NCBI GenBank assembly: GCA_018434325.1
Contig: JAHDPO010000058.1
Location: 1-64,000 of the forward strand
Source of the DNA: Clostridia bacterium
Lineage (GTDB): Bacteria; Bacillota; Peptococcia; DRI-13; UBA5745
Reading direction: 5' to 3'
Length of the DNA: 64,000 nucleotides
The notes beneath the pieces are model-generated. The model had not been told where the DNA came from, made no database searches, and saw only the letters and a program-made list of their open reading frames with translations. Numbering within the stretch: position 1 is the stretch's first letter; every line of letters starts with the position of its first letter. Of this stretch, positions 21,950-53,731 are shown piece after piece. A program made the translations under genes and the position numbers.

Positions 21950-22220
21950 ATAAAAAACGCCCTAAGTCTTTTGACTTAGGGCGAATATCTCCGCGGTACC
22001 ACCTAATTTCGGAAAGCCTAGCTTTCCGCGCTCATCAGGCACAAACATGCCTTACCGCTGTAACGTGCGGTCACGATGAAGCCTACTTGGCAGAACCTGC
22101 CTTTGGGTTCATGGCTCAGAAATGGCTTCCTTATTTCTTACTCGAAGATTCGCACCAACCATCTTCTCTCTGTGCTTTCCGAAATAAGTACTCGTTTTCC
22201 TCATAGCCGTATTTATTATG
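21950..22220 (-). ncRNA. T-box riboswitch, predicted tRNA-Ala (GCC specifier)
   Basis: On the minus strand the conserved GGTGGTACCGCGG (plus 21991-22003) is followed by a perfect terminator CGCCCTAAGTC/GACTTAGGGCG (21958-21983) with a T6 tail. Upstream, Stem I can be folded: a K-turn (GGCT-ATGA / TGA-GCC), then GGAAA/TTTCT, an internal loop with AGTA on the 5' side and GAAGCCA on the 3' side, then CTTATTTC/GAAATAAG. The specifier in that loop reads GCC (plus 22124-22126), an alanine codon followed by A. A Stem III hairpin GGAAAGC/GCTTTCC precedes the T-box sequence. TGGT in the antiterminator would pair with ACCA of tRNA-Ala. Confidence 0.92.
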
Positions 22221-44995: not shown

Positions 44996-45727
44996 ATGTT
45001 GCCAGAACGTGACCAGCAGGAGTATGCAGCACTGCAGATCATCGGCCAAAGCATTTCCCCTGTGGGCTCCGGCTATCTGAGCAGGGAGATGGCCCGGTTC
45101 GGTGTTGCTGTCAGCGAAGCCACAGCAGGCAGGATTTTGAATCGTTTTGATCAGTCCGGTCTAACCACGAAAGTAGGCTTTCAAGGCCGCACACTTACTG
45201 AAGAGGGACATAGCAGGTTAAAGGATCTGGAGAGCAGGGCTGCCAGAAATCAGCAAGGCGAAGAATTTTTCAGTGTGCTCGGCAGTCAGTCCAAAGAAAG
45301 GCTCATCGATATCCTCATTGCCCGCAAGGCAATCGAGCGGGAGTTGGCCAGGCTGGCAGCTGTCCATGCCACTAATAGCGAGATTCAGGAAATGTGGACC
45401 GTTCAAAAAGTCCAGTACGAAACTTTTTCCCGGGATATGGAGGCCGCTGAGCAGGACGTGCAGTTCCACCGCTTGATTGCCAAGGCTGCCCGGAACCCCG
45501 TTCTTTATTCGGCCATAGAGATGATCCGCCAGGATGGTCAGCTGACCCCGGTGCTGGAGTATATCAGAAAGACAGTGCACAGCATCATTTCTTATGATCA
45601 TGCCCAGATTATCCGGGCTATTGAGAACCGCGATCCCCAATTGGCTGAGGAGGCTATGGTCAAGCATCTTGAAAGCTTGATTCAGGACGTTAAGAAATAC
45701 TGGCATCACGTGGAGGACAACTCTTAA
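44996..45727 (+). CDS. Hybrid regulator: NrpR-like winged helix plus FCD domain
   Basis: 243 residues. The N-terminus is not a GntR HTH. Its pattern (ALQIIGQSISPVGSGYLSREM..LNRFDQSGLTTKVGFQGRTLTEEG) resembles the HTH_12 / ribonuclease-R-like winged helix of NrpR-type repressors. From about residue 100 it is an FCD ligand domain (LIARKAIERELARLAA, DVQFHRLIAKAARNPVL, DHAQIIRAIENRDPQLAEEAMVKHL), whose His and Asp residues usually bind a metal and a carboxylate ligand. AGGAG lies eight bases before the ATG. Immediately upstream of the aminomutase genes, same strand, so its likely target and ligand are that pathway. Residue-level family naming is from memory. Confidence 0.75.
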   Translation: MLPERDQQEYAALQIIGQSISPVGSGYLSREMARFGVAVSEATAGRILNRFDQSGLTTKVGFQGRTLTEEGHSRLKDLESRAARNQQGEEFFSVLGSQSKERLIDILIARKAIERELARLAAVHATNSEIQEMWTVQKVQYETFSRDMEAAEQDVQFHRLIAKAARNPVLYSAIEMIRQDGQLTPVLEYIRKTVHSIISYDHAQIIRAIENRDPQLAEEAMVKHLESLIQDVKKYWHHVEDNS

Positions 45728-45788
45728 GACGTCTAATAGATAGCGGAAAATAACAAAACTTTTTTAGCTAATTTTTTTATACAACACT

Positions 45789-45805
45789 GCTCATCAATGA
45801 TGAGC
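45789..45805 (+). promoter_or_regulatory. GCTCATC-AAT-GATGAGC palindrome
   Basis: Perfect 7-base arms around AAT, 20 bases before the small aminomutase component. It could be an operator or a leader hairpin. It sits just upstream of GAGGAAGGA, the ribosome site. Confidence 0.45.
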
Positions 45806-45825
45806 GATGAGGAAGGAAGATGATC

Positions 45826-46056
45826 ATGGAGACCTGTTTAAAAAAGGTTATGGACGCAGTGGATATCGAAACCTTCTTTGTCTGCAAAGATGAGGAAGAA
45901 GGACGGGAATTAGCCTTGGCTTTATTAGAAAAGTTTGGTCTGAAAGATACGGATATCGTCTTCATTGAGCATTCCGGTCCCGGAGCCAGAGTCAGAGCCA
46001 GAGGCTATTTGTACCGGGCCGGTGATCAATATGCTTGGCTGGAAGGAGAAAACTAA
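45826..46056 (+). CDS. Free-standing OAM-dimerisation-like subunit of an aminomutase
   Basis: 76 residues. The segment RELALALLEKFGLKDTDIV..GARVRARGYLY matches the pattern of the dimerisation domain found at the N-terminus of KamE (D-lysine 5,6-aminomutase beta) and inside OraE: helix, GL, strand, then strands ending in V-x-G. Here the domain is its own gene. OraS, the small subunit of ornithine aminomutase, is longer and does not look similar. ATG at 45826 is preferred over 45820 because AAGGA is eight bases upstream. The stop is two bases before the start of the next gene, so they are a unit. The match is weak at residue level. Confidence 0.6.
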   Translation: METCLKKVMDAVDIETFFVCKDEEEGRELALALLEKFGLKDTDIVFIEHSGPGARVRARGYLYRAGDQYAWLEGEN

Positions 46057-46058
46057 TT

Positions 46059-47873
46059 ATGAATAAAGACAAAAAAGTTTTATTAGCTCCTCTTGACCCT
46101 GTCCATGATATCGGTCTGAAGATAATGAACAGGGCCCTTAAAGAAAACGGCTATGAAACTATTCTTTTACCGCCGGACTATCAGCCGGAGGAAATTTTGA
46201 AATCAGCCCTGGATAATGAAGTGGGCGCGGTTCTGATCAGCCGGACCCTGGGTTATGGCGTAGCTGAGCTGTTGTCGAAATTTATCGACCAGGCCGAAGC
46301 CGTAGGCTTGCGGGAAAAAGTGAAAATCGCCATCGGCGGCATGGGTATCCGGGTGGAGCTGGCTCAGGAGCTGGGCTATGACGCCGGTTTTGGCCCTGGC
46401 ACCGTACCGGAGCAGGTCATTGCTTTTATTGAAGACCGGGAGCCGGTTCTGGATCTGTCCGGCGCCATCAAGTCCAAGAAAGATATTACCCAGGGCTTTG
46501 ATTATAAATACGCCAATAAGCGAATCGAAGAGCTTTTGGATCAGATTGCCGAAAAAACCCTGGCTTGGGCTGCCGATAAGACTACTTCCGCCATTCAGCG
46601 GGCGGAGCTGCGCCGCCAGATGCTGGATTTGCCTGAGGGCGCAGAAAAAGAAGAAGCCCGTAAGCAGTATGTGCAGCTTTCCGATGAAAAAATCCGCAAT
46701 TTCTATGAGAACGGCACCATGCCTCCTTATACCCGGCCTTTAGCGCCCCAGGAGATGGCCGATCTGGAAAAATACGTCGAAACCACCAAAGCTCAGATGC
46801 GGATGAAAAAACTCCAGAAAACCGATAAGAATCCCACGGTATTCATCCAATACGGCACCGGCTGTCCTTTCATGGATATTGCTCATGCCAAGGTAGGCGA
46901 ATCCTGGGGCGCCGACGGCGTCGTCCATTTCGATCCCTCCTGGAACGCCAGAGCCGAAGGCTTTTTGGAAGGCGTTTTGACCCACGAACAGGATGGTACC
47001 ATCATTACCTGGGAAAACTTAAAGAAGATTAAAGAATCCCTGGAGCCCTCCACCCTTTGGCAGGTCCGGGCTCACCGTGGCTTAAATACCCCCGAAACCG
47101 TGCTCATGGCCGGTAAAGCCGGCGCCGACATGACGAAGATCAATGTGGCTTACGGTTCTCTGGGCGGCGGCACCGATCCTGCCCGGCTGACGGTGGATGC
47201 TATTCAGTGCATGAAATATGCCAAAGAATTCGATATGCCTTTCGATGTCGTCACCAACGAAGAGCTCTGCGGCGTACCGGCGGCCAAAGCCTTTGCCGGC
47301 ATGTTGACCACGGCCCACATTGCCATTAAGATGGGATGCCGTCCCGTATTGCAGCCTCTCTTTGTCTACTCTCCCGAGGTTATGATCACTGGCGAGATGG
47401 AAGACAACTACGTGGATTTCAATGCCGGCAAGATCATGGCTCTGCGGAGCATCATCAATGCCCCCATCTGGCCCGGCGCTCCCATCGGCTTTTTGACTCA
47501 GACTGAGGATAGGGTGCAATCCTCCCTGTCCACAGCTATGCACGGCGCCCTCGCTTCCTCATTAGGCGTTGAGGCCATTTCCATCGCTTCTTCCGACGAA
47601 GCTTATTCCGGCGGCCCCATTGCCGGGCCTTCCAGAATCGATACCCTTACGGCTTTGAAAGAAAGCTTCCGCTTCTTCGGCAGCGCCTCCATCAAGCCTA
47701 CTGAGCAAGCCGACGTCATTGCGGAAAAGATTGTCAACGGTATTATCGACACTCTTGAGAAGGCTTTGGAATACGAGACCTTCCCCGTGGCTTTGTACGC
47801 CGGCGTATACGGCAGCACCGCAGAAGGCGCCTATCCCGGCCGCGGCGGCAAAGGCAGCGTCGTAACAAAATAA
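46059..47873 (+). CDS. Cobalamin-dependent aminomutase, KamE-type Rossmann fused to KamD-type TIM barrel
   Basis: 604 residues. Residues 1-130 are a B12-binding Rossmann domain: DPVHDIG with His16 as cobalt ligand, LISRTLG as the SxL region and IAIGGMG. The segment ELAQELGYDAGFGPG is nearly identical to KamE. Residues from about 260 resemble the KamD/OraE TIM barrel (YGTGCPFMDIAHAKVGESWGADGVV, APIGFLTQTEDRVQSSLSTAMHGAL, and the glycine-rich C-terminus). KamDE is barrel and B12 domain on two chains; OraE is barrel first, B12 last; here the B12 domain comes first. The DxH aspartate is one residue out of register, and the KamE PLP-lysine (His+11) would be Lys28 (His+12). A PLP- and adenosylcobalamin-dependent 1,2-amino shift is predicted; substrate unknown. 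Confidence 0.8.
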   Translation: MNKDKKVLLAPLDPVHDIGLKIMNRALKENGYETILLPPDYQPEEILKSALDNEVGAVLISRTLGYGVAELLSKFIDQAEAVGLREKVKIAIGGMGIRVELAQELGYDAGFGPGTVPEQVIAFIEDREPVLDLSGAIKSKKDITQGFDYKYANKRIEELLDQIAEKTLAWAADKTTSAIQRAELRRQMLDLPEGAEKEEARKQYVQLSDEKIRNFYENGTMPPYTRPLAPQEMADLEKYVETTKAQMRMKKLQKTDKNPTVFIQYGTGCPFMDIAHAKVGESWGADGVVHFDPSWNARAEGFLEGVLTHEQDGTIITWENLKKIKESLEPSTLWQVRAHRGLNTPETVLMAGKAGADMTKINVAYGSLGGGTDPARLTVDAIQCMKYAKEFDMPFDVVTNEELCGVPAAKAFAGMLTTAHIAIKMGCRPVLQPLFVYSPEVMITGEMEDNYVDFNAGKIMALRSIINAPIWPGAPIGFLTQTEDRVQSSLSTAMHGALASSLGVEAISIASSDEAYSGGPIAGPSRIDTLTALKESFRFFGSASIKPTEQADVIAEKIVNGIIDTLEKALEYETFPVALYAGVYGSTAEGAYPGRGGKGSVVTK

Positions 47874-48084
47874 AAAAAACCTTTAATGTAAAGACTATAA
47901 AAGATAGTTAAAAAGTGACTAGTCAGGTCTTACAGACTCAATCCTACGGATACAATCTGCTATCCGTAGATACTAAGAACGCAGATGTTCCGCTATCCTT
48001 AGATACTAAGGGCGCGTATGTTGGTTGTCGTCCGGCTATAGCCGGTGGAACAATAAATATTTTAATTAAAAGGAGTGGATTCCA
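47874..48084 (+). repeat. Intergenic region with 33-bp direct repeats and palindromes
   Basis: GCTATCCGTAGATACTAAG (47959) recurs as GCTATCCTTAGATACTAAG (47992) within 31-bp units, period 33. TACGGATA (from 47945) pairs with TATCCGTA (47960-47967) over an 8-base loop, and CCGGCTATAGCCGG (48032-48045) is a perfect palindrome. AAGGAG of the next gene follows. A short frame is open through both repeats, but it has no ribosome site. It may be mRNA processing or control between mutase and PLP enzyme. Confidence 0.6.
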
Positions 48085-49575
48085 ATGGCAAAGTTTCAGT
48101 ACAAGACTCAGATGTACCAACACCTGTACGCCAACATCAAAAACATTTATGCTGAATGTGCAGAGGAAGCTAAAAAGATCGGTATTGCTGACAAATTGGC
48201 TCAGTTAAAAGCAGAAGGTCGCGGCACCTTCGGTTTGACCGGTGGCGTTTCCGGCTGCCCCGCCCCCCTGCGTGATGACGTTCTCGAATACACCCACAAG
48301 GAAGCTAAATCTGTTAAAGGCTTAGCCGGTTATGTTGAAGAAATCCGCTACATGGTAAAAGATTTCTATGGCTCCGACTATGATGCTTGCCCTACCGCTA
48401 CTTGCGAAGCCGGCATCAACGTTTGCTACACCAGCATGTTCATGCCTCCTGTTCTGGGCGCCGGCGACACCTATCGTGCCCGTTACATTGCTCCTTACGA
48501 GAAGCATTTCCATCATCAAGGTGGCTATGGCCGTCCCTTCCCCCCCAAGTACAAAGACATCATTGCTAACAGAGGATGTACTGCCGGCGAACTGGGCATG
48601 CAAGGTAAGAGACAGCCTAACCTGGACGTTCTCGTAACCAAGCTGAAAGGCGCTGACTACAGCAATCACGGTATCCAGTACTATCCCGCAGTTCAGCTGA
48701 TGGATGTTAAGGGTGAAGAGAACAGACCTGTATTTGAAGAGATGGCTGCCCGTCATGCCAATATGCTGAGCGGTATCACTTCAATCGGTTATGACACCCC
48801 TGGCTACGGCTACGGTGACAAGGACGCAGAAGGCACTCCCATTCTGCAGAAGGTCCTGGCTGATGTAGCTCATCAGTACGATGTTCCTTACGTTGTTGAT
48901 GCTGCATGGTGCCTGCCTTTCGTTGGCCATGATATCCGCAAGACCGGTGCTGACGCCATTGTTTACTCTTTGGACAAGGCTTCCGCTTCCTCCATCTGCG
49001 GCATGATCATCGGTAAAGAAGAGATCATGGTTAATGCTCGTCGCGCCATGGGCTTTGCCGGCAACCGTTATGGTTCCTTGAGCTCCTATGGTAAGGCTGT
49101 CAGCGTTGCTTTCGATCCCGGTAAAGAAGGCCTCTGCGGCGCTATTGCTGCCATGCGGGTCCTGAAAGACAAACCCGAAATCATGACCAAGCCTGTTGAC
49201 GCCATGTATGATGTCATCGTTGACGAATTCAAGAAAGGCATGGATCCCGAATTGCTGAAGGGCATCTCCTTCACCAAGACCTATGGTTCCTGCGCTTGCG
49301 AAATCAACTACGAAGGCACCTGGAAAGATGGCAAGATGGGTATTCCCATCTTCTCCATCGAGGATATGTACGGCGGCACCAATATCTTCCAGGAAGGTAT
49401 CGGCGCTATGGGCATGATCCCCACCATTGCTTATGACGGCAACATCTATGTTTCCACCGGCCTGAACACCCTGGATGACAACGGCGCTCTGATCGAAGAA
49501 AACATGAGACTTGCTATCAGAGGCTTGATCGCTCTGATCAACATCACTGTGAAATACGCCGGTATCTTAGACTAA
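48085..49575 (+). CDS. Uncharacterised fold-type-I PLP-dependent enzyme
   Basis: 496 residues. The core is a fold-type-I PLP site: TATCEAGIN in the phosphate region, YVVDAAWCLPF with the pyridine-N aspartate, and YSLDKASASSICG with the probable Schiff-base lysine. The nearest look is SelA/DgaE or class V aminotransferase relatives, but the long N-terminal part (about 1-190, Cys- and Tyr-rich, GGVSGCPAPLRDD, PFPPKYKDIIANRGCTAGELGMQGKRQP) matches nothing I know. Codons are strongly biased toward GTT, GCT, GAA, AAG, ATC, unlike neighbours, which suggests very high expression. AAGGAG lies nine bases before the ATG. It likely supplies the mutase substrate or processes its product; reaction unknown. 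Confidence 0.7.
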   Translation: MAKFQYKTQMYQHLYANIKNIYAECAEEAKKIGIADKLAQLKAEGRGTFGLTGGVSGCPAPLRDDVLEYTHKEAKSVKGLAGYVEEIRYMVKDFYGSDYDACPTATCEAGINVCYTSMFMPPVLGAGDTYRARYIAPYEKHFHHQGGYGRPFPPKYKDIIANRGCTAGELGMQGKRQPNLDVLVTKLKGADYSNHGIQYYPAVQLMDVKGEENRPVFEEMAARHANMLSGITSIGYDTPGYGYGDKDAEGTPILQKVLADVAHQYDVPYVVDAAWCLPFVGHDIRKTGADAIVYSLDKASASSICGMIIGKEEIMVNARRAMGFAGNRYGSLSSYGKAVSVAFDPGKEGLCGAIAAMRVLKDKPEIMTKPVDAMYDVIVDEFKKGMDPELLKGISFTKTYGSCACEINYEGTWKDGKMGIPIFSIEDMYGGTNIFQEGIGAMGMIPTIAYDGNIYVSTGLNTLDDNGALIEENMRLAIRGLIALINITVKYAGILD

Positions 49576-49585: not shown

Positions 49586-49610
49586 TGCAAAAAAGTACGG
49601 CATAAGTGAA

Positions 49611-49646
49611 AAAACCGGAACTCAGCTCTTAATGAGCTGGGCTCCG
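49611..49646 (+). terminator. Strong terminator of the aminomutase operon
   Basis: AAAACCGGA (49611-49619) pairs with TCCGGTTTT, with an inner AGCTC/GAGCT hairpin, followed by TTCTTTTTG. Convergent with lgt, whose stop is about 95 bases further. Confidence 0.92.
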
Positions 49647-49741
49647 GTTTTTCTTTTTGTCATGCTGTGTCTTCCTTTTTAAAGCATACGGAAAATGGAA
49701 CGCCCTTTGCTGTGCGGATTCATCAATATGCAAACAAAAAG

Positions 49742-52385: not shown

Positions 52386-53534
52386 CTACCGCCAGCCGGT
52401 AAACCAACGGTCAAGATCGTCGAAAGAGGCCATGCGGAGCAAGACCTGACGGGCGCAGTCCAATAAGGGGAACATGAGAACGGCGCCGGTGCCTTCACCC
52501 AGGCGCATACCCATATGGAGGGGGGGCAGGGCGAGATCCTCTGCCTGACAGCCGTCCGGATTTAATTCCAATGCCTTGGCGGCCAGGCCGGCGCCTTTTT
52601 CTGCCGAGTGATGGGAAAGGATCATGAATTCCTTGACTGCCGGCTGCAGGCGGGCGGCACATAAGGCGGCCACCAGGGAAATGAAGCCGTCCAGCACTAC
52701 CGGTATCCGGCGGCTGCCGCAAGCCAGATACAGACCGGTCATGGCGGCAATATCCAGGCCGCCCACCTTGGCCAGCACCCCGATAACGTCCTCAGGGTCC
52801 GGCTGATTGACGGCCAGAGCTTTTGCTACGGAGGCAACTTTACGGTCCAGGGCTTGTCCTAAAGAGCCGCTGCCGATGCCGGTAACCTCATTTGCCGAAG
52901 CGCCGGTGAGGGCGGCTAAAATAGCGGCGCTGGTAGTCGTATTGCCTAAACCGATCTCCCCGGCGGATAAGACGCCGATGCCTTCGTCAATTAAGCTTTC
53001 CGCCTCTTCAATGCCGATGCTTACAGCCCGGCAGACCTGCTCTCTGGTGAGAGCGGGACCTTTCGTCATATTGCTGGTGCCTTCGGGGCAAATGATCCGG
53101 TCGATTACCCGAATAGCCTCCTGCCGGCCGCCGGCCAAATCCTTTGCCGGAATACTGCGCCCTTGCAGGTATTCCCCTTTCAGCCCCAGGTTGATAATCT
53201 TGACCTGAGCCCCCAGGGCGGTTGCCAGAAGGGAGCCGCCGCCTTTGCCCACGGCCATGATCTCCGCCACCAGACGGCTGATCTGTTGAGGATATTTATT
53301 GAAGCCCTCATCAAAAACACCATTGTCGGCGCAGAAGATGACGTCGGCCTTTTTCTCGATTTGATAATCCAGGCTGCCAAATATGCCGGCCATTACGGCG
53401 GCCAGATCTTCCAGCACCCCCAGGGAGCCTAAAGGCTTTACTTTGTTTTCCAATACTTCTCTGGCCCGGGTTTCCGCCTCTTGGCTGCGGGGCCGGATCC
53501 TGGCCGCATAATTAAGGATATCTTGTTCGTTCAT
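52386..53534 (-). CDS. cobT: Nicotinate-nucleotide:dimethylbenzimidazole phosphoribosyltransferase
   Basis: 382 residues. It activates the lower ligand of cobamides by making the alpha-ribotide. Conserved: [56 protein letters not shown] and the catalytic-glutamate-bearing LGEGTGA near the end. CobT homologues accept varied benzimidazoles or phenolics. The rest of the pathway is not here. It makes sense near a B12-dependent mutase. ATG at 53534 follows AAAGGA. No cobalamin riboswitch was seen. Confidence 0.95.
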
Positions 53535-53731
53535 CAATGTTCCTTTCCGCTGCTGATAACAGTTGTCTCGAATTTTGCCGTATATTCGGTTTCTTTGCAT
53601 TATAACGCATAAGAGGAAAGTTTAAAAGAATAAACTTTGTCCACATTTTCACCTTCGCCGGCGCCGTGGTTCTTTCCGGAGCAAAAGTTGAATATACATG
53701 CTTTAGAAAAGCGAGGAAAGGGGATAGGCAA

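Follow-up and report, generated by a model that had tools for sequence, protein, structure and literature searches.

What kind of enzyme does a locus encode when it carries the parts of a vitamin B12- and pyridoxal 5'-phosphate (PLP)-dependent aminomutase in an unfamiliar order? The locus lies at positions 44996-49575 of the window, a 64,000-nucleotide stretch of contig JAHDPO010000058.1 (assembly GCA_018434325.1) from a Clostridia bacterium. It comprises an FCD regulator, a 76-residue protein (SML), a B12-binding domain fused to a TIM barrel (FUS), a PLP enzyme, and a strong terminator. An earlier note had recognised these elements and all were located on the plus strand. The note read them as a third kind of 1,2-aminomutase with an unknown substrate, beside lysine 5,6-aminomutase (KamDE) and ornithine 4,5-aminomutase (OraSE). 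Few families of B12-dependent radical enzymes are known, and the two that also use PLP, the B12/PLP aminomutases, serve as the model of how radical rearrangements are tamed by PLP. The reading favoured here, with a probability of roughly 0.55, is that FUS and SML form, within the KamDE/OraSE lineage, an adenosylcobalamin (AdoCbl) radical isomerase or eliminase which lacks the KamDE-type PLP site and acts in the pathway outlined below. A narrower form, which falls just short of even odds, makes FUS/SML a PLP-free AdoCbl radical isomerase that either split off before the aminomutase PLP site or lost it. This enzyme would be the core of an undescribed pathway including the PLP enzyme, DUF6917, a flavoprotein, RidA, and a KamB-type reactivase.

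Profiles and a predicted structure relate FUS distantly to lysine 5,6-aminomutase. The AlphaFold2 model of FUS (pLDDT 88.2, pTM 0.85) was built from an alignment of 45 members, which also underlies the invariance counts given for FUS below. The top three Foldseek matches out of 350,542 are KamD chains, 1xrs_A (E 2.7e-16), 8t0v_A, and 9q1a_C, followed by ornithine 4,5-aminomutase (OraE, E 7.5e-10), IcmF, and glutamate mutase. With KamD as its best match, the predicted structure contains the aminomutase barrel on which the earlier proposal hinged. The profile searches suggested at that time point the same way. Using hhalign, the barrel matches KamD with prob 93 over 399 columns, compared with 0.3 for reversed KamD, 0.4 for the PLP enzyme, and 0.2 for the GlmE of the same genome; its match to the OraE barrel is weak (prob 14.5). 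The B12 domain reaches prob 99.7 against KamE and 98.9 against OraE, and Foldseek gives 35% identity to 8t0v_D. It is the sole part of FUS above a Pfam cut-off (E 2.3e-11, residues 13-118), with Lys-AminoMut_A remaining sub-threshold (E 0.076). The NCBIfam KamE and OraE models cover only this domain and score far below their cut-offs (53 vs. 280 and 28 vs. 800 bits, respectively). FUS therefore has both a KamD/OraE-type TIM barrel and a KamE/OraE-type B12 Rossmann domain, and the B12 domain lies ahead of the barrel. No characterised homologue was found, with the same domain order or otherwise. The open-licence literature on KamB/KamC, DUF6917, B12 aminomutase gene clusters, and reactivases yielded nothing on the FUS family.

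Profile comparison, and only that, points to SML as a stand-alone dimerisation-like domain. SML matches the N-terminal dimerisation domain of KamE with prob 92.9, over about 35 columns only, and the dimerisation domain of OraE with 73.1, while controls reach at most 1.5. Its Pfam OAM_dimer match (E 0.049) is below the cut-off, and a search of its profile against PDB sequences returned chance CheY-like matches only. SML adjoins FUS in nearly all of 44 related loci. The open reading frame (ORF) spans 45820-46056 (78 aa from the ATG at 45820), with an inner ATG at 45826 that gives 76 aa and is better placed after AGGAAGG. Together SML and FUS appear to be a permutation of the modules of KamD and KamE.

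The B12-domain tree, a further check proposed in the earlier note, places KamE and OraE in one clade (98/94) and FUS in another (100/98), outside KamE and OraE. As FUS is homologous to the KamD and KamE modules yet lies outside the KamE+OraE clade, a third branch with re-ordered domains beside KamDE and OraSE is supported. That FUS is merely a lysine 5,6- or ornithine 4,5-aminomutase which has diverged while keeping the known substrate is extremely improbable. All three domains are homologous, as this would require, but the PLP-site residues are lost, the clade is separate, and the scores are below the NCBIfam KamE and OraE cut-offs. Additionally, FUS occurs alongside KamDE and/or OraE in many genomes and without them in others, and a search for KCE, a gene of the lysine pathway, in which no positive control responded, gave no match in the genome of the window organism. 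FUS as a plain KamDE/OraSE paralogue was likewise rejected.

The same tree bears on a role in methyl transfer, with the B12 domain acting as a methyl-corrinoid carrier or sensor and the barrel as a methyltransferase. The DPVHDIG motif of FUS resembles the VHDIG of corrinoid methyl carriers, and there are weak matches to MtgC and MtbC. However, corrinoid-carrier B12 domains form a separate clade (99/95), the barrel is closest to KamD, and a KamB-type reactivase occurs in every FUS genome, making this role very unlikely. FUS as a corrinoid methyl carrier was rejected. The B12 domains of the methylmalonyl-CoA mutase (MCM) type are also separate.

In lysine 5,6-aminomutase PLP is contacted by Lys144b, Ser238a, Tyr263a, Asn299a, Arg184a, Arg268a, and Ser189a, which are highly conserved in ornithine 4,5-aminomutase (PMC3958899). 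In FUS the Schiff-base lysine (KamE Lys144, OraE Lys629) falls in a gap against both families, and the loop at this site falls short of the KamE loop by about 8 residues and of the OraE loop by 4. The invariant K21 of FUS is at His+5, not His+11. The ligands of the PLP phosphate, pyridine N, and O3' also differ (KamD numbering first): R184 is replaced by D292, S189 by A297, S238 by R340, R268 by G370, and N299 by a gap. Only the PLP-stacking Tyr263 of KamD is retained, as Y365. The mapping is identical for every hhalign setting that covers a given site, and D292, R340, and Y365 are invariant in 45/45 members. Of the PLP ligands, the alignments thus indicate that FUS keeps the stacking tyrosine alone, some of the others having given way to new residues that are invariant in the family. 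The PLP features of KamDE and OraSE were sought in FUS and not found, which weakens the case for calling it an aminomutase. What survives of the earlier proposal is a third lineage with an unknown substrate; its designation as a B12/PLP aminomutase is not supported, with the PLP lysine and nearly all of the ligands missing.

The real unit is larger than the locus in the window and constitutes a conserved multi-gene set. The grouping is not due to chance, as nearly every one of the 44 related loci has the same genes grouped. The usual operon order is DUF6917 - RidA - PLP enzyme - GidA-like flavoprotein - (transporter) - regulator - SML - FUS - KamB-type gene. The FCD regulator was recovered by tblastn in most loci, the KamB-type gene in 37/44, and RidA in 22/44. 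Of 398 sampled genomes of the phylum, 38 (about one in ten) encode a complete or almost complete FUS. All 38 carry the PLP enzyme and DUF6917, compared with two (one a 77 aa fragment) and one of the 360 others, respectively. The KamB-type reactivase is also present in all 38 but in neither of the two genomes which have the PLP enzyme or DUF6917 without FUS, a distribution that fits a dedicated reactivase. One KamB-type gene (L038) scores 253.8 bits with NCBIfam NF052386, above the cut-off of 210. KamB is the only member common to FUS operons and the KamDE loci compared; PLP enzyme, DUF6917, RidA, and flavoprotein genes are absent from the KamDE/OraE loci compared. No PDB sequence matched DUF6917, the KamB-like protein, or the transporter, and the neighbours of FUS loci gave no clue to the substrate.

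The novelty of the PLP enzyme, asserted in the earlier note, holds. Its model (pLDDT 88.1, pTM 0.90) has fold type I, with SepCysS as the best Foldseek match followed by Cap15 and SelA, at 11-14% identity. Profile matches are weak for Aminotran_5 (E 4.6e-4) and below the cut-off for selA_rel (E 7.9e-6, 25 vs. 385 bits), and the enzyme falls below every curated family cut-off tested, including those of the SelA, SepCysS, and DgaE families. The candidate Schiff-base Lys298 (48976-48978) and pyridine-N Asp272 are invariant in 41 members, as expected of fold type I. SepCysS/SelA/DgaE-like enzymes share this fold, candidate lysine, and Asp, whereas the PLP enzyme is longer. A homologue (56%) at G050:C4:133104-134552 lies in a genome with no FUS, DUF6917, or KamB match and may show what the PLP enzyme does on its own.

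The presence of RidA in the set is suggestive of enamine or imine intermediates. FUS itself could be an eliminase of the ammonia-lyase or dehydratase type, with RidA and the flavoprotein handling its enamine or imine product. PLP-free AdoCbl eliminases do exist, such as ethanolamine ammonia-lyase, and RidA lies by the PLP gene in many operons and by the flavoprotein in the window organism. On the other hand, the fold is closest to aminomutases, only half of the loci contain RidA, and an enamine could equally arise from the PLP enzyme or the flavoprotein. Elimination is unlikely on these grounds, and would be a sub-case of the favoured reading that does not exclude it.

As a PLP-free AdoCbl radical enzyme, FUS would work in complex with SML, which would stand in for the dimerisation domain of KamE. 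The N-terminal B12 domain would bring AdoCbl to the mouth of the barrel, and homolysis of the Co-C bond would give the 5'-deoxyadenosyl radical. The substrate, presumably amino-acid-like, would be held not by PLP but by invariant polar barrel residues, among them D292, R337, H339, R340, K360, Y365, and E402. The KamB-type reactivase would restore inactivated enzyme. The fold-type-I PLP enzyme may act before or after the radical step of the same pathway, which would also employ DUF6917 and usually the GidA-like flavoprotein and RidA. The FCD regulator would respond to a metabolite of the pathway.

Several observations weigh against this reading. The B12-domain tree favours a union of FUS with KamE+OraE without resolving it (88/81 with all rows, 52/31 after removal of bad rows). 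The cobalamin motif is DPVHD[IV]G in 43/45 members, with D13, P14, V15, H16, D17, and G19 invariant, and the canonical base-off motif DxHxxG occurs in 0/45; as the Asp has moved by one, cobalamin binding may differ. The Fisher p of about 1e-51 for co-occurrence of FUS, the PLP enzyme, and DUF6917 ignores kinship, and the PLP-site mapping is based on about 20% identity. Finally, an invariant lysine, K360, precedes Y365 by five residues. A glycine-rich loop, YGSLGGGTDP in the window sequence, comes next, and together these could create a new site for PLP. With K360 at the end of barrel strand 4 and near Y365, it is conceivable that PLP has been re-sited. FUS and SML would then be a true B12/PLP 1,2-aminomutase in which Lys360 binds PLP, Tyr365 stacks on it, and the loop holds the phosphate. 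K360 and Y365 are both invariant in 45/45 members, the model places K360 at the strand end, and Y365 aligns with KamD Tyr263. The closest structures are PLP-dependent aminomutases and all FUS genomes have the KamB-type reactivase. However, the Schiff-base Lys, phosphate ligands, pyridine-N Ser, and O3' Asn of KamDE/OraSE are all absent, K360 could equally bind a carboxylate, and we know of no B12/PLP aminomutase that binds PLP via a barrel lysine. A re-sited PLP is therefore regarded as somewhat unlikely, and a PLP-free FUS is preferred.

The features of the locus and the dispersed genes of the set are collected in Table 1.

Table 1. Features of the locus and related genes of the same genome. 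Positions refer to the window unless a contig label is given.
Feature	Position	Strand	Basis or remark
FCD-type transcriptional regulator (winged helix HTH_12 + FadR C-terminal ligand domain)	44996..45727	+	Pfam FCD E 6.6e-20, HTH_12 E 5e-8
SML, 76 aa	45826..46056	+	predicted stand-alone relative of KamE/OraE dimerisation domain
FUS, 604 aa	46059..47873	+	B12-binding Rossmann domain fused N-terminally to KamD-like TIM barrel
B12-binding domain of FUS, aa 5-126	46071..46436	+	hhalign vs KamE/OraE; identity to 8t0v_D
Cobalamin motif D13-P-V-H16-D-I-G19	46095..46115	+	shifted: DxxHxxG, not DxHxxG
TIM-barrel domain of FUS, aa 154-604	46518..47870	+	DSSP of model, Foldseek, hhalign
HFDPSWNARAE, aa 290-300	46926..46958	+	aligned to KamD PLP-phosphate loop RTTGQS (hhalign)
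Invariant Lys360, last residue of barrel strand 4	47136..47138	+	45/45 members; strand E358-360 in model
Intergenic stretch	47874..48084	+	two-copy 33-nt direct repeat, then ribosome-binding site of PLP gene
Fold-type-I PLP enzyme, 496 aa, no named family	48085..49575	+	model and Foldseek
Intrinsic terminator after PLP gene	about 49610..49652	+	-28.3 kcal/mol, z -6.69, then T run
KamB-type gene	C3:14149-15201		adjoins Fur-type gene, as in L051/L054/L056/L059 operons
DUF6917	C55:45651-46109
GidA-like flavoprotein	C55:44308-45600
RidA	C55:43610-44077		next to flavoprotein

The genome of the window organism is 98% complete, and the nearest named relatives, returned by a scan with a single protein, are four Peptococcaceae/Clostridia metagenome-assembled genomes with 83-97% identity. 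DUF6917, the flavoprotein, and RidA form a trio at G000:C55:43610-46109 (= L107:7611-10110), apart from the window. As the set is spread over three contigs (the window, C3, and C55), it is complete but dispersed in this genome. No KamD or OraE was found in it; PF09043 matches FUS alone, below the cut-off, and OraE matches are weak. A further paralogue of the GidA-like flavoprotein, at G000:C38:5909-7180, shares 56% identity with the operon type. The organism has its own glutamate mutase-like operon, GlmS-MutL-GlmE-methylaspartate-ammonia-lyase-like, and FUS as its glutamate mutase was rejected.

PBP2/rodA-like genes lie upstream of the locus, and lgt, an unnamed 142 aa ORF, PaaK, and CobT lie downstream. 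As the earlier note stated, no racemase or thiolase gene is adjacent; a glutamate racemase gene is 11 kb downstream. CobT, a gene for lower-ligand cobamide assembly, is at 52386-53600 (-), a few kb from FUS. Elsewhere in the window there is a T-box leader at 21974-22213 (-, 128.4 bits), and no Rfam family was found in 44996-49575. The stretch between FUS and the PLP gene varies among close relatives except near the ribosome-binding site. Its 33-nt tandem direct repeat (47956-48021) is perhaps an interspersed repeat; in L031 (9816-10274), a close relative, there appear to be many more similar units, and in L032-L034 none.

Operons of the set lie in a dacF/ScpB...RluB neighbourhood in L035-L043, L046, L047, L050, L052, L062, and L066, and those of the window and L063-L065 adjoin mre/rod genes. 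This may reflect chance or a link to the cell wall or sporulation, and the dacF/rluB, mre/rod, and lgt linkage is not taken as function. Some operons (L037-L039, L041-L043, L046, L050) include an electron-transfer protein resembling sulfide/dihydroorotate dehydrogenase and a second GidA-like flavoprotein. Three genomes, G038, G080, and G303, carry two FUS copies each (L040/L054, L045/L059, and L061/L065), which perhaps differ in substrate.

A third lineage using the same scaffold without a KamDE-type PLP site is a natural experiment on the need for PLP. If correct, a PLP-free FUS/SML isomerase would connect the PLP-free mutases with the PLP-dependent aminomutases. As the gene set is tightly co-occurring, widespread, and uncharacterised, the pathway is directly testable. 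FUS genes should not be annotated as aminomutases, nor the KamB-type gene read as evidence of lysine fermentation.

Compared with the known systems, FUS/SML shares most with KamD/KamE (PDB 1xrs, 8t0v, 9q1a) and KamB, namely the TIM barrel, the KamE-type B12 domain, the dimerisation-like domain, and the KamB-type reactivase. The order differs, with a barrel and a dimerisation-B12 protein in KamDE but a dimerisation protein and a B12-barrel protein in SML/FUS. FUS also lacks the PLP lysine, has other residues in place of the PLP-phosphate ligands, carries DxxHxxG, and is accompanied by other pathway genes. OraS/OraE (PDB 3kow-3kp1) similarly has the B12 domain, the barrel fold, and a small partner protein. 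However, OraE joins barrel, dimerisation, and B12 domains in a single chain with Lys629, an order not found in FUS/SML, and nothing like OraS was seen among the genes of the FUS set. Glutamate mutase GlmES is likewise a PLP-free AdoCbl mutase with a barrel and a B12 domain, but its GlmE barrel barely matches FUS in profile (prob 0.2). IcmF, of the methylmalonyl-CoA mutase family, works without PLP and carries its B12 domain near the N-terminus, ahead of the mutase barrel. It differs in having a GTPase domain, which FUS lacks, in its lower structural rank, and in the separate clade of MCM-type B12 domains. The B12-first order is thus new among aminomutases but not among B12 mutases in general.

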